A stretch of 64,000 nt of DNA from Microbacter sp. GSS18. Lineage in GTDB: Bacteria > Actinomycetota > Actinomycetes > Actinomycetales > Microbacteriaceae. Location of the stretch: contig CP119753.1 in the NCBI GenBank assembly GCA_029319145.1, positions 124,001 through 188,000 of the forward strand. The letters run 5' to 3'. Positions 28,827-57,785 of the stretch are shown piece by piece (within the stretch, counting starts at the first letter, position 1; each line of letters opens with the position of its first letter). The notes under the pieces were generated by a model that saw only the letters and a program-made list of their open reading frames with translations, searched no databases and was not told the origin of the DNA. A program made the translations under genes and the position numbers.

Positions 28827-30218
28827 ATGGAAGCATCGCCGCCCGCCATCGCCACGACCGGCCAGCTCCGCGCATCCGGTCACACGTACCGGCCGGTGCG
28901 GATCGAGCTGCGCGAGAACCTCCTCGACGCCCTCGCACAGGGCCGGGATCCCTGGCCGGGCATCCACGGCTTCGACACGACGGTCGTCCCGCAGATCGAG
29001 CGCGCCCTGCTCGCCGGCCACGACATCGTGCTGCTCGGCGAGCGCGGGCAGGGCAAGACGCGGCTGCTGCGCAGCCTCGTGGGGCTCCTCGACGAATGGT
29101 CGCCGGTCATCGAAGGATCCGAGCTCGGCGAGCATCCGTTCCACCCGATCACGCCGGCATCCATCCGACGCGCGGGCGCGGAGGGCGACGACCTTCCGGT
29201 CGTGTGGCGCCATCGCACCGAGCGGTATGCCGAGAAGCTGGCGACGCCCGATACGTCGGTGGCCGACCTCATCGGCGACGTCGACCCGATCAAGGTCGCC
29301 GAGGGTCGGTCGCTCGGGGATCCCGAGACGATCCACTACGGGCTCGTGCCGCGCAGCAACGGCGGCATCGTCGCGATCAACGAGCTGCCCGATCTCGCCG
29401 AGCGCATCCAGGTGTCGCTGCTGAACGTCATGGAGGAGCGCGACATCCAGATCCGCGGGTACGTGCTACGGCTCGACCTCGACGTGCTCGTCGTCGCCAC
29501 CGCGAACCCCGAGGACTACACGAACCGCGGCCGGATCATCACGCCGCTGCAGGACCGCTTCGGCGCCGAGATCCGCACGCACTACCCCCAGACGATCGAC
29601 GAGGAGATCGCGGTCATCCGGCAGGAGGCCGATCTCGTCGCCGAGGTCCCGTCGCACCTGCTCGAGGTGCTCGCGCGCTTCACGCGCAACCTGCGCGAAT
29701 CGGATGCCGTCGACCAGCGCGCCGGCGTCTCAGCGCGGTTCGCGATCGCGGGTGCCGAGACGATCGCGGCCGCGGCCCTGCATCGCGCGACGCGGCAGCA
29801 CGAGGACGCGGCCGTCGCCCGCCCGGTCGACCTCGAGACCGCCGTCGAGGTGCTCGGGGGCAAGATCGAGTTCGAGACGGGGGAGGAGGGCCGGGAGCGC
29901 GCCATCCTCGAGCACTTGCTGCGCGTCGCGGTCGCCGAGACCGCTCGCGCACACCTGCGGGGTCTCGACACCCGCGTGCTCGCCGACGCCCTGCACGACG
30001 GCGCGACCGTCATGACCGGCGAGCAGGTGACCGCCGCCGACGTGCTGGCGGCGATGCCGGTGCTCGGCGAGTCCGACCTGTACGACGAGGTGGCCGATCG
30101 CCTCGAGGCGAGCACCGTCGGCGAGCGCGCCGGCGCGCTCGAGCTGCTGCTCGAATCGCTGTACCTCGACAAGCGCATCGGCAAGGACAGTGCGGGCGGG
30201 GAGACCGTCTATGGCTGA
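28827..30218 (+). CDS. MoxR/magnesium-chelatase-like AAA+ ATPase
   Basis: 463 residues. IVLLGERGQGKTRLLRSLVG is the Walker A (about residue 70); GGIVAINELPDLAERIQVSL is the Walker B with the Asn-Glu pair of this clade; VVATANPEDYTNRGRI is sensor 1; ISxRF-like QRAGVSARFAIAGAE follows. A C-terminal helical lid ends the protein. The downstream gene encodes a VWA protein, the usual partner of ChlI/MoxR ATPases, in metal insertion or complex remodelling. Bases 29481-30126 are duplicated at 33160-33806. Confidence 0.92.
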   Translation: MEASPPAIATTGQLRASGHTYRPVRIELRENLLDALAQGRDPWPGIHGFDTTVVPQIERALLAGHDIVLLGERGQGKTRLLRSLVGLLDEWSPVIEGSELGEHPFHPITPASIRRAGAEGDDLPVVWRHRTERYAEKLATPDTSVADLIGDVDPIKVAEGRSLGDPETIHYGLVPRSNGGIVAINELPDLAERIQVSLLNVMEERDIQIRGYVLRLDLDVLVVATANPEDYTNRGRIITPLQDRFGAEIRTHYPQTIDEEIAVIRQEADLVAEVPSHLLEVLARFTRNLRESDAVDQRAGVSARFAIAGAETIAAAALHRATRQHEDAAVARPVDLETAVEVLGGKIEFETGEEGRERAILEHLLRVAVAETARAHLRGLDTRVLADALHDGATVMTGEQVTAADVLAAMPVLGESDLYDEVADRLEASTVGERAGALELLLESLYLDKRIGKDSAGGETVYG

Positions 30219-32403: not shown

Positions 32404-33160
32404 GCCGCGAGCGGCGGCGCCACTGGTCAGTCCGTGTACTCGATCTTCTCGTCGCCGTGGTAGGCGGTGCTGATGGGTGCGGGCTCGCCGCCGGTCAGCA
32501 GGTACTGGGTCGCGCGGGCGGGGGTCCGGCCGTAGCGCAGGTGCAGCGGCCAGTTCGCCCAGCCCTCCGGGATGATCACGTATGTCGCCGGTCCTGGGCT
32601 CAGGTCGCGGGTGTCGGGGTCGAGGATCTGGTATTTGCCGGCCGGGATGTCGACCCGGAAGCGGTCGGGATGCGCCGCCTCGTCGAGAAGCTCGCGCCGG
32701 CGCAGCGCCGAAATCGTCTGCATCAGCACGTAGTACTCGAGGGGGCCGAAGCCGTTGGCGTGCATCGCGGCGCCGAAGCGCGACCAGCGTGGCGACACGT
32801 CCGTCCTGCCTGCCAGCGCGGCGCGGGCCATCATGTTCATCGCGAAGGCGCCGGGGAACGCCGGCGGGTAGTCGATGAAGTACCGCATCCAGATCGTGCG
32901 CTCGGCTTCGGGGACGTCGCCCCAGTCCTCGGGCCGGGGTCCGGTGTATTTGGGTGTGTGCTCGGTGTCCATGGCGGTCACCTTCCCGGGACGCCGCAGC
33001 GCCCCTGAGAGCGGATGCCGCGGCTCGCGGCATCCGTCGACTTGCCCGACGCGGTCGCGGCGGGCCGGTTCTTCCCCTGGGGCACCCCGCTCGACGGAGA
33101 GGGTTGCCGGGCAGCCGGCCGGGTACCGACAGCTGCCACTCGTGAACCTGGCTGCGAATG
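32404..33160. repeat. Direct repeat copy A, about 757 bp
   Basis: Nearly identical to 36871-37627 at a constant offset of 4467 bp. It contains a complete 181-aa gene plus about 190 bp upstream of it. The right end fuses abruptly to a piece of the ATPase gene. No transposase or terminal inverted repeats are seen. Confidence 0.93.
32427..32972 (-). CDS. Unknown 181-aa protein, copy A of a duplicated gene
   Basis: Starts MDTEHTPKYTGPRPEDWGD; contains ERTIWMRYFIDYPPAFPGAF, then GPLEYYVLMQTISALRRRE and IIPEGWANWPLHLRYG. No known domain is recognised; aromatic residues are abundant and there is no signal peptide. The twin at 36894-37439 differs at only about seven positions (for example ELLDEAAHPDR against ERLDEAVHPDL). 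The ATG is followed by conserved sequence and preceded by GGTGACC; the open frame upstream lies in repeat DNA. Confidence 0.75.
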   Translation of the reverse strand: MDTEHTPKYTGPRPEDWGDVPEAERTIWMRYFIDYPPAFPGAFAMNMMARAALAGRTDVSPRWSRFGAAMHANGFGPLEYYVLMQTISALRRRELLDEAAHPDRFRVDIPAGKYQILDPDTRDLSPGPATYVIIPEGWANWPLHLRYGRTPARATQYLLTGGEPAPISTAYHGDEKIEYTD

Positions 33161-33806
33161 ACGTGCTCGTGGTCGCCACCGCGAACCCCGAGGACTATAC
33201 GAACCGCGGCCGGATCATCACGCCGCTGCAGGACCGCTTCGGTGCCGAGATCCGCACGCACTACCCGCAGACGATCGAGGAGGAGATCGCGGTCATCCGG
33301 CAGGAGGCCGACCTCGTCGCCGACGTCCCGTCGCATCTGCTCGAGGTGCTCGCGCGGTTCACGCGCAATCTGCGCGAGTCGGATGCCGTCGACCAGCGCG
33401 CCGGAGTCTCGGCGCGGTTCGCGATCGCCGGCGCCGAGACGATCGCGGCCGCGGCCCTGCACCGAGCGACGCGGCAGCACGAGGACGTGGCCGTCGCGCG
33501 CCCGGTCGACCTCGAGACCGCCGTCGAGGTGCTCGGCGGCAAGATCGAGTTCGAGACGGGGGAGGAGGGCCGGGAGCGCGCCATCCTCGAGCACCTGCTG
33601 CGCGTCGCGGTCGCCGAGACCGCCCGCGCCCACCTGCGAGGCCTCGACACCCGCGTGCTCGCCGACGCCCTCCACGACGGCGCGACCGTCATGACCGGCG
33701 AGCAGGTGACCGCCGCCGACGTGCTGGCGGCGATGCCCGTGCTCGGCGAGTCCGACCTGTACGACGAGGTGGCCGATCGCCTCGAGGCGAGCACGACCGG
33801 CGAGAC
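33160..33806 (+). pseudogene. Truncated copy of the MoxR-like ATPase gene (central part only)
   Basis: It matches 29481-30126 of the ATPase gene at a constant offset of 3679 bp, beginning in the sensor 1 strand (DVLVVATANPEDYTNRGR) and running to DRLEASTTGE, with scattered substitutions such as TIEEE for TIDEE. Walker A and B are missing and the frame runs into unrelated sequence, so it is non-functional. The left edge coincides with the right edge of repeat copy A. Confidence 0.92.
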
Positions 33807-36870: not shown

Positions 36871-37627
36871 GCCGCGAGCGGCGGCGCCACTGGTCAGTCC
36901 GTGTACTCGATCTTCTCGTCGCCGTGGTAGGCGGTGCTGATGGGTGCGGGCTCGCCGCCGGTCAGCACGTACTGGGTCGCGCGGGCGGGGGTCTGGCCGT
37001 AGCGCAGGTGCAGCGGCCAGTTCGCCCAGCCCTCCGGGATGATCACGTAGGTCGCCGGTCCTGGGCTCAGGTCGCCGGTGTCGGGGTCGAGGATCTGGTA
37101 TTTGCCGGCCGGGATGTCGACCCGGAACAGGTCGGGGTGCACCGCCTCGTCGAGTCTCTCGCGCCGGCGCAGCGCCGAAATCGTCTGCATCAGCACGTAG
37201 TACTCGAGGGGGCCGAAGCCGTTGGCGTGCATCGCGGCGCCGAAGCGCGACCAGCGTGGCGACACGTCGGTCCTGCCAGCGAGCGCGGCGCGGGCCATCA
37301 TGTTCATCGCGAAGGCGCCGGGGAACGCCGGCGGGTAGTCGATGAAGTACCGCATCCAGATGGTGCGCTCGGCTTCGGGGACGTCGCCCCAGTCCTCGGG
37401 CCGGGGTCCGGTGTATTTGGGTGTGTGCTCGGTGTCCATGGCGGTCACCTTCCCGGGACGCCGCAGCGCCCCTGAGAGCGGATGCCGCGGCTCGCGGCAT
37501 CCGTCGACTTGCCCGACGCGGTCGCGGCGGGCCGGTTCTTCCCCTGGGGCACCCCGCTCGACGGAGAGGGTTGCCGGGCAGCCGGCCAGGTACCGACAGC
37601 TGCCACTCGTGAACCCGGGTGCGAATG
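36871..37627. repeat. Direct repeat copy B, about 757 bp
   Basis: Twin of 32404-33160 in the same orientation. Its right end continues into GTAGCAGAGGCGG-type intergenic DNA rather than the ATPase fragment, so one of the two junctions is secondary. Confidence 0.93.
36894..37439 (-). CDS. Unknown 181-aa protein, copy B of a duplicated gene
   Basis: Same length and start as the gene at 32427-32972, with about seven amino-acid differences. Both copies keep an intact frame despite the duplication, which hints that both are expressed or that the duplication is recent. No domain is recognised; there is no signal peptide or membrane segment. Confidence 0.75.
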   Translation of the reverse strand: MDTEHTPKYTGPRPEDWGDVPEAERTIWMRYFIDYPPAFPGAFAMNMMARAALAGRTDVSPRWSRFGAAMHANGFGPLEYYVLMQTISALRRRERLDEAVHPDLFRVDIPAGKYQILDPDTGDLSPGPATYVIIPEGWANWPLHLRYGQTPARATQYVLTGGEPAPISTAYHGDEKIEYTD

Positions 37628-39645: not shown

Positions 39646-40560
39646 CTACGCCCCGACCTCCGCGAACGCCCGCACCGGGAACGTCCCGAACCCCTCGACC
39701 GCGGGCGGCGCTGCGGTGAACCGTGCGCCGCGCGGCGGCAGCGCGCCGAGGTTCGTGAGGTGCTCGACCACGTGCACGCCGGCGCCGAGCAGCAGCGTGT
39801 GCGCGGGGCGCTCGCCGCCGGATTCGGTGTCGTCGATGTTGACCGAGTCGATCCCGACCAGCACCGCGCCCGCCTCGATCAGGTACGCGGCGCCCTCGCC
39901 GGTCAGGAACGGCGCGCCCTTCCCGTACGCCTCGGTGCCGAAGTGACGGTCCCACCCGGTGTGCAGCAGCACCGCGGCTCCGGCGACGTCGCGATCGGCG
40001 AGCGTCTCGGGCCGGATGCCGCGGCGGCCGGCATCCCACGCATCCTCGAGGTGGAACACCTCGGCGCGCAGCCCCACGAGCTCCTCGAGCGCGAGCCCCG
40101 CGAGGTCGGGCCCCTCGGCGTACCGGTGGAACGGCGAGTCGAGGTAGGTGCCGGTGTTGCCGATCATCGTGATGACGTCCATCGCGAACTCGGTGCCCGG
40201 CGCGTAGCGCGAGCGCGAGTCCTCGCGCGTGAGGTGCGGGGTGATCGTGGGCGCGGGCAGCCCCGGATACGTGACGAGCCCCGCCCGGATCGGGTGGCTG
40301 AGATCCACGACCCGCCGCCCGGATGCCGGGGGAGCGGCCGGCACATCCCGGCTGCCGCGGTGCGGCTCCTCGACGATCCGCAGCCCGGTCAGCTCGACCC
40401 GCTCGACGAGCGCGAGCCCGAGGTGGCGCACCAGCATGAGCCCGATCGCCGCCTCGTCGGCATGCGGCCCGGGCAGGTCGAGCCGGAACCCGGTGCCGTG
40501 CAGGTCCCCGCCATTGGCGAAGGCGATCTCGAAGTCGAAGTGGGCGCGGTACTCGGGCAT
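39646..40560 (-). CDS. Cyclase-family (kynurenine formamidase-like) metal hydrolase
   Basis: 304 residues. The C-terminal 215 residues carry DLSHPIRAGLVTYPGLPAPT, then GNTGTYLDSPFHRYAEG, which corresponds to HxGTHxDxPxH of the cyclase fold with Tyr in place of one His ligand, and SVNIDDTESGG later. The N-terminal 85 residues are an extra domain (YRAHFDFEIAFANGGDLHGT). The substrate is unknown. A TACTCT box 6 nt before the ATG makes it probably leaderless. A decayed partial copy lies at 45372-45715 in the same orientation. Confidence 0.87.
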   Translation of the reverse strand: MPEYRAHFDFEIAFANGGDLHGTGFRLDLPGPHADEAAIGLMLVRHLGLALVERVELTGLRIVEEPHRGSRDVPAAPPASGRRVVDLSHPIRAGLVTYPGLPAPTITPHLTREDSRSRYAPGTEFAMDVITMIGNTGTYLDSPFHRYAEGPDLAGLALEELVGLRAEVFHLEDAWDAGRRGIRPETLADRDVAGAAVLLHTGWDRHFGTEAYGKGAPFLTGEGAAYLIEAGAVLVGIDSVNIDDTESGGERPAHTLLLGAGVHVVEHLTNLGALPPRGARFTAAPPAVEGFGTFPVRAFAEVGA

Positions 40561-40914
40561 GGGATGAGAGTAGGGGCGAGCGGATGCTGGGAGCCGCGCT
40601 ATCCGCGGGGTTGGCGGTACGGGGTGGAGGGTTGGCAGGACGGCATGCACACGCTCCCGCACACCTGGGGGATCTCACAACCTCGCGCGATGGATCGACC
40701 GTCGCAGTCGCCGCGCAACTGAGAAGCTTCGGCTCGCGCGCTTGTGCGCACACCTTCAGCTTGAGTGGCGCAGATTGACTTGGTCGGCGCTCCAATACGA
40801 CAACGCGAATGCGTTTCGCGCGCCTGAACTCGTGCCCGGCGCCCGGTGATGTCGTCGGACGGGGCGACCTTGGGCCGGTCGCGGTACTGTGGGTCTTCGC
40901 CGAGGGGACCTCCA
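40561..40914. other. Left boundary of the defence island, promoter region of the RT gene
   Basis: 354 bp without a gene. It contains TACTCT (40567-40572, minus strand) for the cyclase, an inverted repeat CGCGAA-tgcgt-TTCGCG (40804-40820), and TACTGT (40885-40890), a possible -10 for the RT gene. GC content falls here relative to the left flank. An RNA partner of the RT could lie here; I see no decisive structure. Confidence 0.5.
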
Positions 40915-42420
40915 ATGAAGCTCGATTCCGCCGTCATGAAGAAGCTCGACTTCAAGACGAGTGCTGCCTCATTGACTGCAAATGCCCTGGATCGACTACC
41001 GCTTCTGATTTCAGAGAAGTGTCTGGCTGGAAACGAGGCAACGATTGTCCGGGAGGTGACCACGGATTACTCGGCCGGCCGAGCCGTCACGTCCTCAACA
41101 TTCAGCATGCCTCGACGTGGCTTCGGCCCGCGTCCAGTGACTGTCTTGGCTGGGATCGACCGAGTCGCCTACGGTGCGCTCGCGGACAGCCTGCGCCCCG
41201 ACCTGCCCGCGGAGTCGAGGACTCCGGAGAACTGGGCTGACTTCCGTGGGTTTGGGCTTCCCGGGGCGAACGAGCAGGGCAAGTACATTGTGACCATCGA
41301 CATCGCTTCGATGTACGAGTACGTCGATCACGAAGTGCTACGGCGAGAGCTGCTGACGCAGTCATTGAACGCGCCAGTGGTCGGGCCTCTCATCGACCTA
41401 CTCGGAGAAGCATTTCAACGGCCCCGCGGCCTCCCACAGATGATGGGTACCAGCGATCTCTTGGGGGATGTCTATCTCGGGCGGCTTGAGCGGTCCCTGC
41501 TGCAGCAGGAGCGACGATTTCGTCGGTATGTGGATGACTTCCGGGTGCTTGCCGACGATTGGGGCGCAGCAAACCAGATCATTGAGGAAGCTGCGGAAGT
41601 GGCACGTTCACTCGGCCTGATCCTCTCCTCGGAGAAGACCTCGATCAAGCGTTCAAAGCGATTCCAGGAGGAGGATTCACTCCTTCAGCAGATTGTCCAG
41701 AAGTACTTTTCCGAGGCGGTGGATTCGCTCACCGTGACCTTCGATGACCTAATTGGGCCGTACGGCGAGCCAGCCGTCTTCGAGGACGAGCCTGACCACG
41801 ATGAAGCGCTTCGTGAGGCGTATCGGCAGGTGCTCAACGACTGGATGGAGAACTCACGCTCGGAGAGCGGCATTCCGACGCGCCTTGCGGGTCGAGCTAT
41901 CCAAGGACTTGACGAAGCGCCTGAGCGCGTGCCGAACAGGGTGCTCCGGGAGTTGGTGTTTCGCGATCCCTTGCGTCTTTCGACTGTGATTCGCTACATC
42001 GCGAAGCGCTCAGAACCGGAGGAGAACTGGAAGTCGCTGAGGAAGCTCGTCACGATGAAGCGCCAGAGTCCGTGGGCGAAACTCTGGCTGCTTCAGGCGA
42101 CTTCTGACCAAGGGGTGGTGGGAGAAGCGAAAGACAAGCATGCAAAGACGGTCGCCACGTGGGTTCGTGCACAGCTCGAAGATCCTCATGAGGTGGTTCG
42201 TGCTCAGGCGGCGTGGGTGGTGGCGGAGATGGGCGTCCTGCGTCCGCGGGATGTTGGTCGTCTGTACAGCGCGGCAACGTCCATCACGCGCAACGGACTT
42301 GCAGCTGCTCTAGGAAGGTCCGGAGCATCAGACTCGGACCCAGTGAGTCGTGCGATCACGCAGTCCTCGCGATTGAGCCGGGCGGCCTTTGGGTGGGGGA
42401 GCAAACAGGCTGACGGATGA
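40915..42420 (+). CDS. UG/Abi-type reverse transcriptase with helical C-terminal domain (AbiA-like)
   Basis: 501 residues. RT motifs in order: KYIVTIDIASMYEYVDHEVL (motif A, Asp about 129), GLPQMMGTSDLLGDVYLGRL (motif B), RRYVDDFRVLADD (motif C, YVDD at 205-208) and GLILSSEKTSIKR (motif D). The retron VTG and the group II intron maturase regions are missing. From about residue 260 to the end it is alpha-helical with HEAT-like pieces (EDPHEVVRAQAAWVVAEMG), as in AbiA/AbiK-class UG RTs. These act in phage defence. GGGGACC precedes ATG 40915. GC is near 50 percent in places, well below the flanks. The next gene overlaps by 4 nt. Confidence 0.85.
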   Translation: MKLDSAVMKKLDFKTSAASLTANALDRLPLLISEKCLAGNEATIVREVTTDYSAGRAVTSSTFSMPRRGFGPRPVTVLAGIDRVAYGALADSLRPDLPAESRTPENWADFRGFGLPGANEQGKYIVTIDIASMYEYVDHEVLRRELLTQSLNAPVVGPLIDLLGEAFQRPRGLPQMMGTSDLLGDVYLGRLERSLLQQERRFRRYVDDFRVLADDWGAANQIIEEAAEVARSLGLILSSEKTSIKRSKRFQEEDSLLQQIVQKYFSEAVDSLTVTFDDLIGPYGEPAVFEDEPDHDEALREAYRQVLNDWMENSRSESGIPTRLAGRAIQGLDEAPERVPNRVLRELVFRDPLRLSTVIRYIAKRSEPEENWKSLRKLVTMKRQSPWAKLWLLQATSDQGVVGEAKDKHAKTVATWVRAQLEDPHEVVRAQAAWVVAEMGVLRPRDVGRLYSAATSITRNGLAAALGRSGASDSDPVSRAITQSSRLSRAAFGWGSKQADG

Positions 42421-42947
42421 TTCCCAAGACAGTTGGTCGACTGGCGGAGCGCGCGCTCTGGGCGATTGCCGATTCTCACTCCAACGGCACCTCGCCGGAA
42501 CTTGTCGTTCTGAGGTCATGCGCGTTGACGGAGGGCTACGTCGATGACTTGCTCGACCAACTCTCGGCCGCTGATCTCCACGCAGCTAGCGACTTCCAGG
42601 AGCTCGCGTTCGGCCAGGTGCGGACTCAGCTTCACCAGTCCTGGCAGAGTCGTAGGCAGTGGTTGAAGGATGGGTTCGGCATATCGATCGCTGGGAGTCA
42701 GGCCGCACAGGAGTTCGATGTGCTGGTGGAACTCAGAAACGCGCTCACGCACGGCGCCGGCGAGCTCACGAGGCTCCAGAGGAATCGGCTGTCGGACCAG
42801 CTCGCGCTGGAAAGCAAGCTTGTCTCCGTCATGAAGCTCGGAATGCGTGGCAATCGTCTCAACTTGACGGCCGAGACTTCGGTAGCAGCGGTCAAGATCG
42901 CATGTAGCTACGTGATCGCGCTTGACTCGGGGGCTCGGGCAAGGTGA
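42417..42947 (+). CDS. HEPN-type putative RNase coupled to the reverse transcriptase
   Basis: 176 residues, all-helical. FDVLVELRNALTHGAGELTR carries R107-N-A-L-T-H112, the Rx4-6H signature of HEPN ribonucleases. The start overlaps the RT stop (ATGA), so the two are co-translated. In AbiA a HEPN domain is fused behind the RT; here it is a separate protein, which supports the AbiA-like reading (inference from known family layout). It probably cleaves RNA when the RT-dependent signal is triggered. Confidence 0.75.
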   Translation: MIPKTVGRLAERALWAIADSHSNGTSPELVVLRSCALTEGYVDDLLDQLSAADLHAASDFQELAFGQVRTQLHQSWQSRRQWLKDGFGISIAGSQAAQEFDVLVELRNALTHGAGELTRLQRNRLSDQLALESKLVSVMKLGMRGNRLNLTAETSVAAVKIACSYVIALDSGARAR

Positions 42948-43255
42948 GCGGTCTACGCAAGCGAATCTTCCACGCGTGTGTTCCTGACGCCCTTAATGTA
43001 GGGCAACCCTTGGGGGGAAATGCCGACCAACCGATCGAGCACGCTCACGCGCAGGTTGGGCCAGTCGCGGGTCCGGAGAGATGGCCGAAGCGCAGCGCCG
43101 CAACAAGCAGTTTCAGACCAGCCCAGCAGAAGATCAGATCGGAGCCGTGCGAGTAAAGTGTCGCAGCGGCTGGGTAGTGGCTTGGCGCGTGCGCGAATTG
43201 CGGCCGAGTGACGTCGATAGGATCGGCCAAAGAGCTAGCTCGAACGGCGGGGGCA
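42948..43255 (+). other. Gap between the RT-HEPN pair and ptuA, possible ncRNA and promoter
   Basis: 308 bp with no convincing gene. CCCTTAATGTAGGG (42990-43003) can pair as a small hairpin followed by a G-run, and TAGGAT (43217-43222) is a plausible -10 for ptuA. Whether an RNA is made here is unknown. Confidence 0.4.
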
Positions 43256-44755
43256 ATGCAGGGCACAAGATTGATCTCCATCGCGTCGGACTTTTCCCGA
43301 ACCGGTATGTTCGTTGATGCGGCGGCGACGACGATGTCGCTTGAGGTTTCGCCCGACAACAACAGCCCTCGGACTCAGCCGGAGTCTTGGGTGTCAGTGC
43401 TGATTGGAAGGAATGGGCTCGGCAAGAGCAGGGCCCTCGGCGCCATCGCGTCCGTATTCGCATCGGCGCGGAGCGGGCGCATGCCACTTCGGAGTCGCAG
43501 CGACTCCAATTGGCGACTCCGCTACCGGGTCGGCGACGACGATTGCGAGCTATGGACGGCGGAGCGTGGTCGAATATATGGGACAAGAAATGGGCAAAAC
43601 TGTGATCCGGAAGTGATCCCCTTGCCCTCAAGGGTTATCGCCATTAGCACTACTGCGATGGACAAGTTCCCGTTGCCACCGAGGGAGGATCTTCGGGGTG
43701 ACTCTATCCACGAGGGCATATACAGCTACCTCGGCCTGCGCGACCGCTCGGGACGGGCGTCCGCCACCGCAGTGGCACTCTACGCACTCGAGGCGTTGGT
43801 CGAGGCGACAGAATCGACTCAGCAGCGGCGAAGGAGAATCGCTCAGGTCTTCAAGTTCTTGGGGTACGCGCCACGTGTTGAACACACGTATAGATGGCGC
43901 TACTCGTCGATCCTTCGTTCTGAACGTGGTCTGAGGGACCTGCTGGACGAAGAGGAGGGGGCGGTTGCTGCGCGCAGCGTCTCCGTTCGCCTTCAACGGA
44001 TGGTGGACCGCGACGAGAGCATTCTGGATGAGCTCCAGACGATCGTCGATAACTTGAGATCTAGCCATCCGACGCGGGAGGTGCGCCTTACCGCTGACTT
44101 TCGAAGCGTCGGAACAACCGAGCTAGATCGATTTCGGGACATGCAGCTCCTCAAGAGAGCCGGGCTTGTCGAGCTGAGCGCCGTGGAGCTAGAACGCGAG
44201 GACGGTGGGTTGAAGGTGGACCTTCGCGAGGTTAGTTCGGGGGAGCTCTCGCTGGTGACGGCGTTTCTCGGGCTTGCCGCCGTAATTGAGAACGACGCGC
44301 TCGTCCTCATTGACGAGCCTGAGGTTAGTCTTCATCCAGAGTGGCAATCGCAGTATCTCGGCTTACTAACGAAGGTCTTCTCGAGCTACTCAGGTTGCCA
44401 CTTCGTTGTCGCCACCCATTCGCCACTCGTTGTCTCCGATGTTTCCCCTGATGCCGCGAATGTCGCTTCCTTCGATCCGAAGCGTCAGGTCGCTGAGCCG
44501 GGCGCTGACTATGCGGGCGACTCAGTCGATGAAGTTCTGGTTCGCGCATTCGACGTGCCGGGCAACAACAATCTCTACCTCAAGCAACGATTGGTGGAAG
44601 CGCTGCGCTTGGCGGCAGACGGCGCCGCGGCATCGCCAGAATTCAGAGCCGCGATGGAGCCCTTATTGGAGATAGCACCTCGCCTCGATCCTGGTTCTCC
44701 GACGCTTGGACTGATAGAGCAGCTCCGCAAAGCACGAGAGCGTAGCGCAGACTGA
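43256..44755 (+). CDS. ptuA: PtuA-like AAA ATPase (Septu-type)
   Basis: 499 residues from ATG 43256 (a GTG at 43208 is possible). VLIGRNGLGKSRALGAIASV is the Walker A (Lys about 57); the long middle region is helical; LREVSSGELSLVTAFLGLAA is the ABC-type signature and DALVLIDEPEVSLHPEWQSQ the Walker B (Asp-Glu about 353-354), followed by HFVVATHSPLVV with the switch His. This is the ATPase layout of PtuA and OLD-like proteins. The next gene, an HNH protein with 1-nt overlap, identifies a PtuAB pair. Septu degrades nucleic acids upon phage infection. Confidence 0.85.
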   Translation: MQGTRLISIASDFSRTGMFVDAAATTMSLEVSPDNNSPRTQPESWVSVLIGRNGLGKSRALGAIASVFASARSGRMPLRSRSDSNWRLRYRVGDDDCELWTAERGRIYGTRNGQNCDPEVIPLPSRVIAISTTAMDKFPLPPREDLRGDSIHEGIYSYLGLRDRSGRASATAVALYALEALVEATESTQQRRRRIAQVFKFLGYAPRVEHTYRWRYSSILRSERGLRDLLDEEEGAVAARSVSVRLQRMVDRDESILDELQTIVDNLRSSHPTREVRLTADFRSVGTTELDRFRDMQLLKRAGLVELSAVELEREDGGLKVDLREVSSGELSLVTAFLGLAAVIENDALVLIDEPEVSLHPEWQSQYLGLLTKVFSSYSGCHFVVATHSPLVVSDVSPDAANVASFDPKRQVAEPGADYAGDSVDEVLVRAFDVPGNNNLYLKQRLVEALRLAADGAAASPEFRAAMEPLLEIAPRLDPGSPTLGLIEQLRKARERSAD

Positions 44756-45366
44756 TGGAGGTCGTGAGTTTCTCCGCTGATCAGCTTGCGTTGATAAAGG
44801 ACTTGTGTGGCGCGGAGCCGTGCGCGCCGAGCGCGTGGGCTGAAGACTCGGTCAAAGATCTCAAGGCGACGATCAAGTCGCACTACATTCATGCGCAAGC
44901 CACCACCTGCTGCTACTGTCAGCGCCACCTCGCTTCCGAGAATCACCGCGTATGGGATATTGACCACGTTGTTCCTCGGTCGACGCACCCGAGATTCATG
45001 TTTGAGCCGCTGAACCTCGTCGCATGTTGCCCCGACTGCAACCGTGCGAAGAAGGACCAGCGGGTCCTCAAGAACAACCGACGGAAAAAGTATCCGACGA
45101 AGTCGACCGACTTCCTGATCCTTCATCCGCACTTTGACGAGTATGCGGACCACATATTTCGGCAGCAACATGTCTATCTCGGCAAGACAGAGAAGGGCAA
45201 GCGGACCATCTATGTTTGCGATCTGCTGCGGTTCGCTCAGAAGTACATCGCGTGGCCGAACGCCATAACCGACTCGCGGTTCGAATCCGAAGTGGACGTG
45301 ATTGTCGCGGGTGGCTCAGACGGCGCCGCGGCGGTCCAGCAGATCGCTCGGTCGCTTCAGATTTAG
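44755..45366 (+). CDS. ptuB: PtuB-like HNH endonuclease (Septu-type)
   Basis: 203 residues. TCCYCQRHLASENHRVWDID and HVVPRSTHPRFMFEP then LVACCPDCNRAKKDQ make a full HNH module with two CxxC zinc pairs and the catalytic His about residue 71. Its start overlaps the PtuA stop (TGATG). Size, motif order and neighbour fit PtuB. The C-terminal 90 residues are helical and could contact PtuA. Confidence 0.87.
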   Translation: MEVVSFSADQLALIKDLCGAEPCAPSAWAEDSVKDLKATIKSHYIHAQATTCCYCQRHLASENHRVWDIDHVVPRSTHPRFMFEPLNLVACCPDCNRAKKDQRVLKNNRRKKYPTKSTDFLILHPHFDEYADHIFRQQHVYLGKTEKGKRTIYVCDLLRFAQKYIAWPNAITDSRFESEVDVIVAGGSDGAAAVQQIARSLQI

Positions 45367-45371
45367 GATCG

Positions 45372-45715
45372 TCGGAGCGAACCCCGAGGAGTTCGTCAAG
45401 CACGAGCCTCGCGAGGTCGGTCCCGTCGTCACAGGGGCGGAACGAAGAGTCGACGAAGGTGCCGGTGTTGCCGAGCAACGTGATGACGTCCATCGCGAAC
45501 GCGGTGCCCGGCGCGTAGCGCGAGCGGGAGTCTTCGCGCGTGAGGTGCGGGTGATCGAGGGTGCAGGGAGGCGCGGGTAGGTGCCGAGCCCTGCCCGGAT
45601 CGGGTGGTTGAGATCCACGACCCGCCGCCCGGATGCCGGGGGAGCGGCCGGCACATTGCGGCTGCCACGGTGGGGCTCCTCGACGATCCGCAGCCCGGCC
45701 AGCTCGACCCGCGGG
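45372..45715 (-). pseudogene. Decayed partial copy of the cyclase gene
   Basis: The minus strand shows ELAGLRIVEEPHRGSRNV, then DLNHPIRAGLGTYPRLPAP in one frame and HLTREDSRSRYAPGTAFAMD, GNTGTFVDSSFR in another, matching the middle of the intact cyclase gene at 39646-40560. A frameshift separates the two parts, and both ends are missing. It directly follows the ptuB stop. Confidence 0.93.
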
Positions 45716-51301: not shown

Positions 51302-52006
51302 TCAGCCCAGATCGCTGATTGCTCCGGCCTGCCGCAGCTTGGTGAACCGCTGCCGCATGTGCGAGGCGAACCCAGCGTCGTGCACGATGACACCCGCCTC
51401 GAGGTTTCGTTCCGCTCCAGCAGTCGAGAGATTCGCGCTCGTCACGAACGCGCTCCGTGAATCCACGATCACGACCTTCGAGTGCTGCGCGGAGTAGTGC
51501 CCGTCCGGATGCACGTACGTCCAGAACCTCGCACCAGCGAGCTTCTGCTGCAGCATCGCTGCCGTCTGCCCGTCCTTGAGCTTGGAGTCTACGAGCAGGG
51601 TCGTGCGGACACCGCGCGCGATCGCCCGCCACAGCGCCTTCACGAACTCCGAGTCAGCTGTCGCCGAGAAAGTGGAGGCGAAGACGTCCTCATTGGCCTC
51701 GTCGATGAGGTGCGCGATCGCCGACGTGGTGTGATCACCGTCGCCATCGAAGGTCGGGCCGCTCCAAACCGCGCGGATGTCGGTCGCATTCGTCTGTGCC
51801 GCGGTGGCGAAGCCGCGCAGCACCGCCGCCAGCATCGGGCCGCCGACCGCCTCGTACCCGGCCTTCAACGGCGTCGCAGCCGGGGAGCCCTGCGGGAGCT
51901 TCTCGACCGCTTTCGATAGTCGTCCGTCGATCTCCAAACTCGAGGCCACCTTCAGCGCTGCCGCTGGGGTGAGCGTCGAGGCGAGTTCGACGAACGGCTC
52001 GGCCAT
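51302..52006 (-). CDS. drmC: DrmC, phospholipase D-like DISARM protein
   Basis: 234 residues. The C-terminal half has YSAQHSKVVIVDSRSAFVTS, the HxKxxxxD catalytic motif of the phospholipase D superfamily (His about 175, Lys 177, Asp 182), followed by ANLSTAGAERNLEAGV. The N-terminal 100 residues are helical. The start overlaps the drmB stop (TGATG). DrmC belongs to the DISARM core but is not always essential for protection. Confidence 0.9.
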   Translation of the reverse strand: MAEPFVELASTLTPAAALKVASSLEIDGRLSKAVEKLPQGSPAATPLKAGYEAVGGPMLAAVLRGFATAAQTNATDIRAVWSGPTFDGDGDHTTSAIAHLIDEANEDVFASTFSATADSEFVKALWRAIARGVRTTLLVDSKLKDGQTAAMLQQKLAGARFWTYVHPDGHYSAQHSKVVIVDSRSAFVTSANLSTAGAERNLEAGVIVHDAGFASHMRQRFTKLRQAGAISDLG

Positions 52007-54090
52007 CAGCTGAAGCTCGCCGAGATGCCTGCGAGTAGCGGCTTCACGTCCAACGATCCTGCGTGGAGGTCGAGGATGAACCGGCGGTCGAGGAAGCGAT
52101 TCGCTCGCTCGCATGACGTCTCCGACAGGAATGCGCAGAAATGGCAGGCCGCGCCGTGCAGGAAGTCCTCCTGGTTCTTGGGCACACGGTGCGCGCAGAT
52201 CGGATCGGATGAGCACCGCTGCGCACGATGCACCGCATCCTGCATCACGGACTCCAGACGCTCGGTACGAGCCAAGTCCACCAGGCCACCGAGCGTTCCT
52301 TCGCTATCGGGCGATGTGGTCGTGATCAGGATGCCGGCGGCCGGATCCCGTCCGTCTGATCCACGCCATGCGTAGATGCGCTCGGAAAGTGATGCGGACC
52401 CATACCCGCTCGACATGGCCATCTCTCGAATCAGCAGATGCGACAACGTGTGGAGGGCCCAATAGCGTGGCGGCGGCATCCGGTCATCGGCGCTGACGGC
52501 CACTGCCGTCGTGCTCTGCCGGCGGGCGAGGTTCCGCTCGTGGGCCGCGCAGTGGTCAGCCCAGACCTCGCTGTTCAGGACGCCACTCTCCCAGGCCTCG
52601 ACGGTGGCTTCGTCGAAGCGAACGAAGACTCCCTCGCCGCGGTCTTCGGTCGCGGGTACCCATTTCGGCTTGCCCGACAAAGCGATCGGAGCGATGCGCG
52701 TCGCGTCGTCCCCGACGCGGTCGAGTGCGTCGATGCGGGTGAAGCCGATGAACGCGTTGGCCTTTCGGATGCGGTCCACCGCCACGACATCGCTGATCGC
52801 CGAGCCGAGCGTCGCGGCGACGGGAACGGGATGCACCTTGAAGCCGTTGCGCCGGTCCTCGGCGAGGAACTCCGTCGGATGCGTCAGCGTCTCCCACTCG
52901 GGAACGAGAAGGTGGTTCGGGTCGTATCCGACCGGGCCGGAGGCCTCGGGCGTAAGAGGCGGGAGCGTGCCGCGAGCGACCTGGACGGCCGTCCAGAGAT
53001 CCTCGTCGGAGATCCCCTCGAACCGCTCGGTGATGCTCTCGGGTGCGTACATTCGCCATCCGCTGACCGCCGCAAGAGATGTCAGCTTCGACACCTGTAT
53101 GGGCGGCAGGCCCAAGACTTCCGTGACCGTGTCGGCAGGCTGCGGCACCTTGCGTGAAGGCAGGACGAGAACACTGATGGTCGCGGGGAACCACTGGTTC
53201 GCCGCACCGAGGAGCATGAGTCGGACTTCACCCTGGCACGGGTCGTCTGCGGACGCGTACGACGGAAGATGCGGATGCCGCCCGCGACAGTTCGGCAGCG
53301 AGTCCGCGCCGCCGGCCCGCGTCAGTTCGACGATGTTCCGGGATGTGCCGCAGGCGACGCACTTGATCGATACTTGTGGTCCGAGGTTCGAGCGCCATTC
53401 GAGCATTCGCATCTTCGGCTGCGCAACGCACTCTGTGCGGTGGCCGTCGGCGCCGTGCACCCAATCGACGTACGGGAACTCGTCCAGGTGCCCATTCGTG
53501 CAGGCGATCAGGTACCGGGCCGGTACGGCGACGCGGTCACGGGCCTTGCCGCCGCTGTGGCGCCCCTTGCACCCTTTGTGCACGAACCGAGCCAGATCGG
53601 GGCGGTGCTTGCGCGTGTTCTCGAACTCGAAGGTACTCGCGGCGGACGCGGGCGCGAGCAGATCGCATCCAGTACAGCGGAGCCATTGAGGGAAGACCCG
53701 GGTGGGAATGCCGATGGGCGTCGTGTCGCCGCCGCGCTCGTCGGGCAACCACGGCGGCTGGCGGAGTTCGCCGACCTGCTGACCGAGCTGACGGCGAACA
53801 GCCTCGACCAGACGCGGAACGAGTACGAGCGGGGGGTCGCCACCCATCCTCGCGTACGCCTTGTCCCAGGAGTCGATCCCCTGGGGCATGACGGCGATCT
53901 GAGGGAGGTCGACGGTCGCGCCGATGCCCGACGTGTACAGCATCGCGTTCGGCCGGATCGAACCGATCCGCGCGCGATTCTTCGGCTGCCCTGCGCCCGC
54001 GTAGGGGTCCGCGACGTCACCAGGGACGCCGACAACAGGGTCTTCCGCATCGGCGGTCGCCTGCGCGGCGGAACCGTTCTCTTCAGTCAC
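52006..54090 (-). CDS. drmB: DrmB, DUF1998-domain DISARM protein
   Basis: 694 residues from GTG 54090, which overlaps the drmA stop by 4 nt (GTGA). N-terminal: IRPNAMLYTSGIGATVDLPQ. Zinc pairs: RCTGCDLLAP and KCVACGTSRNIV. C-terminal DUF1998: LHTLSHLLIREMAMSSGYGS, then GILITTTSPDSEGTLGGLVD and Cys-rich SSDPICAHRV...ACHFCAFLSETSCE. DrmB forms a complex with the DrmA helicase in DISARM. Confidence 0.93.
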   Translation of the reverse strand: MTEENGSAAQATADAEDPVVGVPGDVADPYAGAGQPKNRARIGSIRPNAMLYTSGIGATVDLPQIAVMPQGIDSWDKAYARMGGDPPLVLVPRLVEAVRRQLGQQVGELRQPPWLPDERGGDTTPIGIPTRVFPQWLRCTGCDLLAPASAASTFEFENTRKHRPDLARFVHKGCKGRHSGGKARDRVAVPARYLIACTNGHLDEFPYVDWVHGADGHRTECVAQPKMRMLEWRSNLGPQVSIKCVACGTSRNIVELTRAGGADSLPNCRGRHPHLPSYASADDPCQGEVRLMLLGAANQWFPATISVLVLPSRKVPQPADTVTEVLGLPPIQVSKLTSLAAVSGWRMYAPESITERFEGISDEDLWTAVQVARGTLPPLTPEASGPVGYDPNHLLVPEWETLTHPTEFLAEDRRNGFKVHPVPVAATLGSAISDVVAVDRIRKANAFIGFTRIDALDRVGDDATRIAPIALSGKPKWVPATEDRGEGVFVRFDEATVEAWESGVLNSEVWADHCAAHERNLARRQSTTAVAVSADDRMPPPRYWALHTLSHLLIREMAMSSGYGSASLSERIYAWRGSDGRDPAAGILITTTSPDSEGTLGGLVDLARTERLESVMQDAVHRAQRCSSDPICAHRVPKNQEDFLHGAACHFCAFLSETSCERANRFLDRRFILDLHAGSLDVKPLLAGISASFS

Positions 54091-57000
54091 TTGGCATCCT
54101 TCTTCGCCTTGACGGTGAATGTCCACTTCGGCGTCGTCGCGGTCACGGGTTCGGCGAGCTTGCCGGGGAAGGGCGACACGAGCAGATCGATTTCGGGCTG
54201 CACCTCGCGCATCGAGTTGGCCACCTGGAAGAGGCGATCGCCTTCCTCGCCGATGGAGTCCTCGGGGCTGATCAGCAGAGGTTCGACGATCTGGTGAGGG
54301 AGTGTCTTCTTCGAGTACGTGAGCGCGCCCGACGTCGCTGTCGCCCGGTCCGTCCACTTGTCGAGCCGCAGCACGATCTTGCTCTTCATGCTCGATGCCG
54401 CCCCGGTGTCGGCTGCGATATCGACACGCGCGACGAGCTTGTCGACGATGGCATCGACAGTCGAGCGTCGGACTGTGATGCGGCCGGCGCCGGTGTTGGC
54501 TTCTGCAGAGAGCGACTCGCTGGGTGTCGCTGTTGCGTCGATCACACGCGCAGCCGAGACGATGAGGCCGGTGAGCCCGCGCTCGAGCGCGGCTTCTGAG
54601 AACGGCGTGACAGACAGCGCCTCGACGTTCGCGTAGAACGTGTCGTGGTAGTGCTCGAACTGCTCGTAGTGAGCCATGTCGCGCGGTCGCGCACGGTTAG
54701 CTAGCGTCACCACGAGCCCCGGCTTCGCTCCTTCTCGTCCGACGCGGGAGGACGCCTGGATGTACTCCGCGGTGTTCTTCGGCTGACCCACGATCATCAT
54801 CAGGCCGAGTCGAGGTACGTCCACGCCCACCTGGAGCATCGAGGTCGCGAGCACGACGTCGTACGGCAGTTCGCGCGGGGCGAGTTGCTCGCCGGCCTTG
54901 AGCTTGGCCGCGATGACGGCCCTTCCGGCGGTCGTGTCAGTATCGGCGTCGAACGGCGATGCCAGGTGCGTGAGCGTCTTCCCGATCTCGGAGGATGAGA
55001 TGCGAGAAGTCAGCTCGCCGAGCTTGAGCGGTGTGCGCCGTCGTGGATATCCGGTCGACTTGTCAGGGTTGCTCACCCGTGTCGTCACGTCATCCTCGAG
55101 GTACCGGCGCATACCGGCCAGTTCTCGCGTCGCCGAGAAGTAGTCGACGAGGGTGAGGTACGGCTCCGCTGCCGCGCCATGCGCGTCGAACAACCTCTGA
55201 CCGGCGAGCAGGAGGATCTCGCTGAGGCGGATCTCTGCCAGTGTCAGGCGAGCGCCGTGAAGGCACACACCGAGGTAGCGACGTCCCGGGGCCTCGTCGA
55301 GCGGCACTTCCTTCGAGAAGAAGGTGTCGCTCACGCTCAGCACCTGCGGCGGGAACACCTCGACGTCTCGGGCATACAGCCGTTGGACCTGCGCGGCCGC
55401 CTTCCGAACGGTAGCCGTCGATGCGATGACGAGCGGCTTCACCGGCTTCGCTGCACCGGGCGCACCCAGTTCCCAGCTCGACAGGACGTCGATCGCGCCT
55501 TCGAACAGCCCGACCGCGGTGCCGAGTGCTCCGGTGATGAGGTGGAGCTCGTCCTGGATGATCAGGTCGGGCGGGCGCAGCCGGCCCACCGTCGTGACTT
55601 GCGTCGCGGGGTAGGTTCGTCCATTCGCGGTCTTGGTGTTGTGCGTGTCGGCGCCGCAGACGCTGCCGTCGGTGTCGAGGTGTTTGTAGCCGTGACGCGG
55701 GCACTTCTTCGCGACATAGCCGAAGATGCTCGCCGCTTCGCCCTCGCGAGCCAGCCGAGCGAACTTGTCGACGGTCGCGAGCAGGAAGGTCGGCGGATGC
55801 CGGTAGATCTCATCATCGACGGTGAGAACGGGAAGCCCGACTTCGGCAGACCCGCCGGTGGCGAACGGACAACGGGCTCGACGATCGCCGCAATACACAC
55901 GGATGCGCTTCTCGACGTCGTCGGCTTCGACGTTCGCCTTCGGGTTGATCTCGGTACCGCACCAGGGGCAGTGGTCGAACTGGAGGACGGTGAGACCGTA
56001 GGCGGAGCTCCCATCCCGCTCGCGGACATCCTTCACCTGCTCTGCCGCCTCGGTGTACCGCTTCGGGCTGACGCTCGAGCCCACCCATAGGCCGATCGTG
56101 AAGGGTGTCTCGCCCCACGTCTCCGGAGCCTCTCGACGGACGACCTCGGCGGCACACATAAGTGTGGTTGCGCGCAGGAACTGCTGCGATGTGAGCAGTC
56201 GCAGCGTGTACCGCATGACAACGGCGACGCCGTCGCCGCCGTCGAGCAGCCCTTCGGGCGTCTCGACCTTTCCTTGCAGGCGCCGGATGCCGAACGTGAA
56301 CGCGGCCAGGCCAAGGTAGGCCTCCGTCTTACCACCACCGGTGGGGAAGAACAGCAGCTCGGCGCGGGCGAAATCGGTCGAGCGCCGCACGTGAGTCGGG
56401 TCGACGACCGAGGGGAGCTGCATGAGAATGAACGCGAGCTGGAAGGCGCGCCAGGACGCCGCCTTCTCGCCGCGCGAATCGACTGCTGCGACGGCATCGG
56501 CGATCGACAGATCCTTATCCTCGATTCGGAGTGCCGCGACCTGTGAGCGCAGGCGCTGATCGCGCATCGTGCGGTTCATGAACCAGAACGCGTGCTGCGC
56601 CTGCTCGTTCGACGTGAGGAGGTTGAGGCCGGCACGCAGCCGCACGAGCGCTGCGTCGCCGTCCTCGAGCCCGATGCGCCCCTGCTCCCGAAGCCACTCC
56701 GGAAGCCTCGAGTTGTCTTCCTCCCGTTCCTTCAGCCAGCCGGCGTACCCGTCGATGAGCGGCTGCAGGCCCGCTTCGAGCTCTGCCGGGGATGCATCCA
56801 TGAGCGCTCGCATGCTGAGTACCGCGCCCTCAACCGCGGGAGCCTGCGTCTGCGGAACCTCTGCGGTGGGGAGCCAGGTCGTCCTGACCGCCGTCGCCCG
56901 ACGCGTGTCGGTTTCGGAGAGGTCCCAGTCCACAGAGGCTGTGCGGCCGACGGCGAACTCGAGGCGGTCGCGGTAGAGCAGGTCGAGACGGCGCACTTCC

Positions 57001-57785
57001 AGGTCTCGAGAGCCGCGATCGGACACCATCGCATCGCGAGCGGGCAGGAAGACGGCGTCCCCGCTCGGCGCGGTGACCTCGAGCTCGGCCTGGAACATCC
57101 ACAGCTTCGGCGGCAGCTCACGTCCTGTGATCGCCGTGTTGAGGAGGGCCGCTTCGACGACACGACGTCCCTCGACGTCGAACACCTCGACGCTGATCTC
57201 GACGTCTCCGGGCAAGACTCGTCTCGTCGAGCTGCCGTCCTGCAGGATGGAGATGTCGATCTCGGCCAGCTCTTCGAAGGGCGTCCGGTCGTAGTACGTC
57301 TGTGTCCGGCCCTGGTCGTCCACGTCCCGCCGAGCAGCGTACTTGCCCCAGCGTGCGGTGAACCGGAGCAGCCCATTGTCCGCTGGCACCTGGAATCGCA
57401 GGCCCATCGACGACGGGGCGATGATCTTCGACTCGGGTCCGCGATCCTCGTCGGGTTCGCTCGGCGATGCTTCCGCGATGGGCTCCTCTTCATCGGCGGG
57501 CAGGCCGTGAACATCGCGCACGCCGCTGAGATCGGCGACGGCGAGGGACTCGTCCGCGCGAACGTCGGCGAGCGTGGCGTCGAGGGCGTCGGTCGACGAT
57601 TCGGCGGCGGGTGTGCCGCCATCGAGGAGCGAGATCGGGGCGAGCGCGCCGGCGAGGTAGCGGGCGCGGGGTGTGCCCACGATCGTCTCGTCGGGTCCGT
57701 CCCACGGGCCGACGAGGTCGCGACTGATCAGATCGACTAGCTCTTCGCGGACTTGCGCAGAGTTTGTCGGGGATTCCGTGGACAC
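54087..57785 (-). CDS. drmA: DrmA, DISARM helicase
   Basis: 1232 residues from GTG 57785, sharing one base with the drmMI stop. LLFFPTGGGKTEAYLGLAAF is the Walker A (Lys about 486); DLIIQDELHLITGALG is the DExH motif (about residue 743); VIASTATVRKAAAQV is motif III, and EYIQASSRVGREGAKPG motif VI. Two Cys clusters (HCPWCGTEIN, CPRHGYKHLD...CGAD) interrupt the helicase. The N-terminal 450 residues carry strand-rich accessory domains. DrmA with DrmB is the DISARM core that acts on incoming DNA. Confidence 0.95.
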   Translation of the reverse strand: MSTESPTNSAQVREELVDLISRDLVGPWDGPDETIVGTPRARYLAGALAPISLLDGGTPAAESSTDALDATLADVRADESLAVADLSGVRDVHGLPADEEEPIAEASPSEPDEDRGPESKIIAPSSMGLRFQVPADNGLLRFTARWGKYAARRDVDDQGRTQTYYDRTPFEELAEIDISILQDGSSTRRVLPGDVEISVEVFDVEGRRVVEAALLNTAITGRELPPKLWMFQAELEVTAPSGDAVFLPARDAMVSDRGSRDLEVRRLDLLYRDRLEFAVGRTASVDWDLSETDTRRATAVRTTWLPTAEVPQTQAPAVEGAVLSMRALMDASPAELEAGLQPLIDGYAGWLKEREEDNSRLPEWLREQGRIGLEDGDAALVRLRAGLNLLTSNEQAQHAFWFMNRTMRDQRLRSQVAALRIEDKDLSIADAVAAVDSRGEKAASWRAFQLAFILMQLPSVVDPTHVRRSTDFARAELLFFPTGGGKTEAYLGLAAFTFGIRRLQGKVETPEGLLDGGDGVAVVMRYTLRLLTSQQFLRATTLMCAAEVVRREAPETWGETPFTIGLWVGSSVSPKRYTEAAEQVKDVRERDGSSAYGLTVLQFDHCPWCGTEINPKANVEADDVEKRIRVYCGDRRARCPFATGGSAEVGLPVLTVDDEIYRHPPTFLLATVDKFARLAREGEAASIFGYVAKKCPRHGYKHLDTDGSVCGADTHNTKTANGRTYPATQVTTVGRLRPPDLIIQDELHLITGALGTAVGLFEGAIDVLSSWELGAPGAAKPVKPLVIASTATVRKAAAQVQRLYARDVEVFPPQVLSVSDTFFSKEVPLDEAPGRRYLGVCLHGARLTLAEIRLSEILLLAGQRLFDAHGAAAEPYLTLVDYFSATRELAGMRRYLEDDVTTRVSNPDKSTGYPRRRTPLKLGELTSRISSSEIGKTLTHLASPFDADTDTTAGRAVIAAKLKAGEQLAPRELPYDVVLATSMLQVGVDVPRLGLMMIVGQPKNTAEYIQASSRVGREGAKPGLVVTLANRARPRDMAHYEQFEHYHDTFYANVEALSVTPFSEAALERGLTGLIVSAARVIDATATPSESLSAEANTGAGRITVRRSTVDAIVDKLVARVDIAADTGAASSMKSKIVLRLDKWTDRATATSGALTYSKKTLPHQIVEPLLISPEDSIGEEGDRLFQVANSMREVQPEIDLLVSPFPGKLAEPVTATTPKWTFTVKAKKDAK

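Follow-up and report, generated by a model that had tools for sequence, protein, structure and literature searches.

We analyzed 64,000 nucleotides of contig CP119753.1 from Microbacter sp. GSS18 (positions 124,001 to 188,000; hereafter, the window) and found that this stretch encodes a UG22-type reverse transcriptase (RT)-like polymerase of the UG/Abi kind, whose gene overlaps that of a HEPN-type protein of the RTasHEPN family. The polymerase has kept its catalytic residues and, in its structural model, combines an RT-like core with a helical domain; the HEPN protein has kept residues of the active-site type; a tyrosine is conserved in the linker of the polymerase; and the two genes are coupled and nearly always occur together. 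We give about an even chance to the reading that the pair is a split AbiA-like anti-phage cassette whose HEPN RNase is governed by DNA synthesis that is untemplated and protein-primed; this control is the part that we infer. The genes and residues discussed below are as follows (window numbering).

40915..42420, plus strand: UG22-type UG/Abi RT-like polymerase gene, 501 amino acids (ATG at 40915, stop TGA at 42418-42420)
42417..42947, plus strand: HEPN-type partner gene, RTasHEPN family, 176 amino acids (ATG at 42417)
42417..42420, plus strand: ATGA, 4-nt overlap of the RT stop and HEPN start codons
41299..41301, plus strand: motif A catalytic Asp, D129, invariant in 57/57 aligned homologues
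41527..41538, plus strand: YVDD catalytic motif, residues 205-208 (D207 and D208 each in 57/57 homologues)
41761..41763, plus strand: Tyr283 (Y in 56/57), in the loop joining the palm to the helical domain; candidate residue for DNA priming
42531..42533, plus strand: HEPN Glu39, invariant (26/26)
42735..42752, plus strand: HEPN R-N-x3-H motif (R107, N108, H112), RNALTH (R, N and H each 26/26)

Identity of the polymerase and its HEPN partner

The RT matched Pfam RVT_1 (E 1.1e-9) and, among the defence-gene models of PADLOC-DB v2.0.0 (2023 release), RT_UG22 (PDLC03760) at 492.4 bits (E 4.1e-148; profile positions 2-476 of 476), the next-best family being UG21 at 107.7 bits. This full-length profile match and the catalytic Asp residues of the YxDD motif place the protein in UG22. 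By sequence it is a divergent member, with identity to its nearest homologues of 55% or less. An alternative in-frame GTG lies upstream at 40846, and aligned homologues favour the start at 40915.

The predicted structure of the RT (pLDDT 95.4, pTM 0.92) has a palm/fingers region extending to about residue 272 and a helical domain at about residues 295-500, which bears out the helical C-terminal extension that a first-pass annotation of this DNA had proposed along with the YVDD motif. Whole-length structural alignments were obtained with DRT6, DRT4 (UG15), AbiK, AbiA and Abi-P2, whereas those with DRT2 and DRT9 extended only to residue 326, and group II, diversity-generating retroelement (DGR) and retron RT structures matched mainly the core. 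The model also shows the feature by which Class 1 is described, a HEAT-like repeat domain of alpha-helices joined to the RT (PMC13174585); placement in Class 1 would follow from that description of the class rather than from a published class for UG22.

The partner matched the PADLOC RTasHEPN model (PDLC03820; 124.8 bits, E 7.2e-37) over residues 28-174 and profile positions 5-146 of 148; PADLOC output names no RT group behind this model. RiboL-PSP-HEPN was the sole HEPN model listed in the Pfam search, at E 0.21, below the cut-off, and a search of PDB sequences with the HEPN profile returned no HEPN among its matches. The predicted structure (pLDDT 92.8) is all-helical except for a short hairpin, and the top rows of its structural search were HEPN domains, in agreement with a HEPN fold.

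The first-pass annotation had taken RNALTH as the HEPN signature. We rejected an R-x4-6-H string as evidence by itself, as it arises in 62% of 10000 shuffles of the protein; the motif counts because it is kept in all 26 aligned partners (the window's, those of 24 loci and one of two further proteins), which share 18-41% identity with the window's HEPN protein. Five residues, E39, W76, R107, N108 and H112, are identical throughout (26/26). They appear to be of the active-site type; RNase activity as a dimer is predicted.

Pairing of the two genes among relatives

Scoring of the best 8000 word candidates yielded 81 RT relatives, including the window's own protein; those with organism names were actinobacterial (for example Microbacterium, Arthrobacter, Streptomyces and Nonomuraea). 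After fragments and some others had been omitted, 57 of the 81 were aligned. A scan of genome contigs gave 22 RT loci, every record titled as actinobacteria. When searched with a profile of three HEPN sequences, 21 of the 22 proved to have a HEPN frame on the same strand as the RT and downstream of it. Homologous pairs recur in other actinobacteria. Together with L038, L040, L041 and the window, these make 25 paired loci; a HEPN start codon lies -34 to +5 nt from the RT stop in 24 of them and one lies at exactly -4 nt, as in the ATGA of the window, in nine. No fused RT-HEPN protein occurred among the 57 aligned proteins or the 25 paired loci, and the extra length of the two longest RTs (P0017 and P0019, 642 amino acids) lies at the N terminus.

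Six loci weigh against a pairing without exception. The miss among the 22, L020 (Streptomyces turgidiscabies), has no HEPN gene, and its RT matched only over residues 1-238. L024 has a short RT frame with the HEPN gene about 0.5 kb away. Three UG22-like RTs (L042, L043 and L044; 252-312 bits) and one partial RT (L045; 118 bits) have no HEPN within about 1.4 kb downstream. The pairing is near obligate. Separately, we noted by eye that the frames upstream of the RT in L042 and L044 share an RPASL(G/D)GTG stretch, perhaps marking a different partner.

Among 396 genomes of the order, five contained RT_UG22 (threshold 1e-30) and five RTasHEPN (1e-3); four carried both, adjoining. Each family had one unpaired match: for the RT a weaker UG22-like protein at 274 bits (G052), for HEPN a marginal one at 20.6 bits (G138). 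A draw of 396 genomes from the phylum gave RT_UG22 at 1e-30 in five, two of them already counted in the order set. The window's RT was unmatched in 34 other genomes of its genus; one same-genus genome from the order set (G102) carries a distant match. Plasmid records (1e-20) and phage records (1e-10) yielded no match, and none of the 12 IMG/VR relatives scored above 65 bits with the A1 profile. In 10 of 12 loci examined, the gene called directly after HEPN lay on the opposite strand (exceptions: L006, and L005 with a short overlapping frame), so two genes look sufficient for the cassette.

Phylogeny

In a first tree of 50 rows, the UG22 RTs failed to come out as a single clade, owing to a UG17 row, on a branch of 5.94, that was placed among them. 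We removed this row and the distant proteins P0080 and P0081, leaving 47 rows and 245 columns, and a branch (100/97) then set the 24 HEPN-paired UG22 RTs apart from the rest, including three UG22-like RTs that lack HEPN. The window RT clustered with three Microbacterium loci (100/99). The trees took in 12 of the 81 RT relatives and had no retron, AbiA or AbiK rows, and a search of 100 genomes turned up no St85-type retron RT; L002, L020, L024, L030, L032, L037 and L045 were left out as duplicate, partial or surplus. The deeper branching order is unsure, because in the 47-row tree Drt8 and group II were flagged as being joined through long branches, and two changes were needed for the remaining UG rows. 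Across 24 pairs, distances among the RTs correlated with those among the HEPN proteins (Mantel r 0.84; 0 of 10000 permutations).

Other identities for the RT were tried and rejected. St85, the only model of a retron RT listed, gave 11.5 bits against a cut-off of 235, and a retron RT was dismissed. For a group II intron RT, the equivalog model gave 53.1 bits against a cut-off of 300, and in the tree the window RT lies apart from the group II RTs, all five of which (5/5) exceed the NCBIfam cut-off. Matches to the NCBIfam Drt RT models were also far under their cut-offs. A DGR RT was rejected solely on the partial length of the structural matches. The RT and HEPN operon described in the first-pass annotation stands, while its suggestion of an undescribed branch fails: the RT is UG22 by profile, and both families were already catalogued in PADLOC-DB. 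Judged by these profile matches, the pair belongs to a kind already catalogued, with nothing marking a new one.

A candidate priming tyrosine in the linker

In AbiA, the priming tyrosines Y298 and Y303 lie in a loop at residues 290-310 that links the RT and helical domains (PMC11077055). At the corresponding junction of the UG22 RTs, Tyr283 is present in 56 of 57 proteins, the sole exception being F in P0041; its column has an entropy of 0.13 bits, and neighbouring loop positions have 2.0-3.4 bits. In the tree alignment, it is Y in all 24 HEPN-paired UG22 RTs and in the three UG22-like RTs. Loop blocks within residues 271-290 were modelled at pLDDT 81 and 77, and the fully invariant tyrosines 134, 187 and 361 are located in helical segments. 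The conservation of Tyr283 within this hypervariable loop is new here, as is the invariant HEPN residue set; by analogy with AbiA, Tyr283 is a candidate primer, and it is the one feature bearing on whether this RT might make DNA in a template-free, protein-primed manner.

Proposed mechanism and alternatives

In the reading that we favour, the RT, with its helical domain in place of a thumb, would make untemplated DNA, using its own Tyr283 as the primer. The HEPN protein, translated as a separate chain, would dimerize and be held by the RT or by the DNA adduct of the RT. Phage interference with the adduct or the complex would release the HEPN RNase, which would cleave cellular RNA and so stop growth. 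From the pairing and the conserved residues to the control of toxicity is a step of inference, and the mode of DNA synthesis, the complex, the RNase activity, the trigger and defence itself are all proposed in the same spirit. We prefer this reading by analogy, because of what is published on Class 1, AbiA, DRT1 and retron-Kva2. Class 1 UG RTs have a helical-repeat domain, and those studied synthesize DNA without a nucleic acid template, some of them protein-primed (PMC13174585). In DRT1 (Class 3), DNA synthesis activates an effector and DNA adducts quench it, and in retron-Kva2 a HEPN RNase is sequestered and freed upon phage attack. The role in defence of the untemplated DNA made by Class 1 UG/Abi polymerases is described in the literature consulted as unresolved, and the same is said of undefined DNA more generally. 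Our literature searches, whose coverage did not include Mestre et al. 2022, returned no publication on UG22 defence.

A clearly less probable reading is that the pair is AbiA split in two, the HEPN protein being a non-catalytic subunit for dimerization and nucleic acid binding, required by the polymerase, and the antiviral action coming from the DNA product. AbiA lacking its HEPN domain (assayed as a SUMO fusion, for which its authors leave room for other effects) formed no dimer and had no polymerase activity, and AbiA with a mutated HEPN motif still defended; both observations speak for this reading. In addition, the UG22 RT aligns with AbiA 3-477, so that together with the HEPN protein it restores the full set of AbiA domains. 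Against this stands the invariance of R, N, H and two further residues in all 26 partners, which resembles a retained active site, although the contrast with the AbiA motif is incomplete.

A further reading, somewhat unlikely in our estimate, makes UG22 a toxin-antitoxin, split and retron-like: DNA of random sequence, grown on the polymerase's Tyr283, would itself serve as the antitoxin that locks the stand-alone HEPN RNase, and the trap would be sprung by any phage enzyme that acts at single-stranded DNA ends.

We regard as improbable a templated, Class 2-like system with an unrecognized noncoding RNA, for which DRT2, DRT3, DRT9 and DRT10, all reported to function with one, are the precedent. 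The whole-length fold matches to AbiK, AbiA, DRT6 and DRT4, set beside the partial ones to DRT2 and DRT9, speak against it. So does the flanking DNA: across about 450 nt upstream and 300 nt downstream, the window and 16 loci had no stretch in common, apart from three Streptomyces loci with longer shared upstream flanks (the upstream edge was taken as the start of the tblastn match, sometimes a few codons inside the gene). The shared flank at L018 contains FtsK/TraB-, GntR- and NUDIX-like frames, as judged by eye, as of an integrative element. An Rfam search of positions 40400-43400 gave no match up to E 0.1. For an adjacent msr-msd ncRNA of the retron kind, the observations are likewise the lack of conserved flanking DNA and of an Rfam match. 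These results argue against a conserved template RNA and are compatible with a fast-evolving one.

Least probable of all is a toxin-antitoxin pair with HEPN as a toxin that the RT neutralizes through its polypeptide alone, DNA polymerase activity being incidental: the gene coupling is tight, and HEPN adjoins the RT in four of the five HEPN-bearing order genomes (the fifth being the marginal match), but RT catalysis seems to be under selection, because D129, D207 and D208 are invariant.

Genomic context

The RT and HEPN genes have GC contents of 0.604 and 0.61, against 0.718 in positions 1-40000 of the window, so the lower-GC island noted in the first-pass annotation is real; its limits are at about 40.7 kb and about 84 kb (window numbering), the second of them past the end of the window. 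It also has GmrSD-type proteins (Orf5/HEC-06 and HEC-05 models) and the following genes.

43208-45366: PtuA/PtuB Septu pair, directly after RT-HEPN
51302-63977, minus strand: DISARM genes DrmC, DrmB, DrmA, DrmMI and DrmD in a single run
1041-12840 of L060, 1.0-12.8 kb beyond the right end of the window: DruM-type cytosine methylase and DruE-type helicase

A 786-amino-acid frame between DruM and DruE and a 1105-amino-acid frame beside DruE matched no PADLOC model at 1e-30. An ARAGORN tRNA-Phe call at 43848-43940, within the PtuA frame, is probably spurious.

Ten neighbour proteins were scanned at 8 other loci, and three were a TrwC relaxase, a Replic_Relax protein and an rve integrase. Mobility of the RT-HEPN loci is only suggested, because these are mixed with others such as a Tex protein and an MFS transporter. 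Left of the pair, a cyclase gene (39646-40662, minus strand; Pfam Cyclase) contains a 342-bp piece (40061-40402) that recurs at 45372-45712 with 87% identity; flanking the RT-HEPN-PtuAB block, this repeat is perhaps an insertion scar. No empty site was found in the three relatives examined, in which the cyclase gene matches and its flanks do not. Farther left are direct repeats of 757 bp (32404-33160 and 36871-37627; 97.6% identity) and 645 bp (29481-30125 and 33160-33804; 95.3% identity), and five frames chosen by length in this region had no Pfam match at 1e-5.

Comparison with known systems

As a family the pair is ordinary, both of its components having been catalogued previously as defence genes, and its use is as a test case. 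Because the UG22 polymerase and HEPN are two genes, the polymerase, the priming residue and the HEPN active site can be mutated or removed independently, which is harder in the fused AbiA; D207/D208, Y283 and R107/H112 are the specific residues for testing.

Retron-Kva2, a type IX retron, likewise has an RT and a separate HEPN protein within one operon, but its RT is a retron RT with multicopy single-stranded DNA (msDNA), a winged-helix protein is present as a third component, and its HEPN protein lacks the canonical motif. AbiK and Abi-P2 have no counterpart to the HEPN domain of AbiA. AbiA itself (Lactococcus; PDB 8oz7) and the UG22 pair share an RT-like core, a helical domain replacing the thumb, a HEPN domain and a linker tyrosine. 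They differ in that the HEPN domain of AbiA is part of the same polypeptide as the RT, whereas here it is encoded by a separate gene; in the HEPN motif, which is R-x6-H in AbiA and R-x4-H here; and in the linker, where AbiA uses two tyrosines and the UG22 RTs have one that is conserved.
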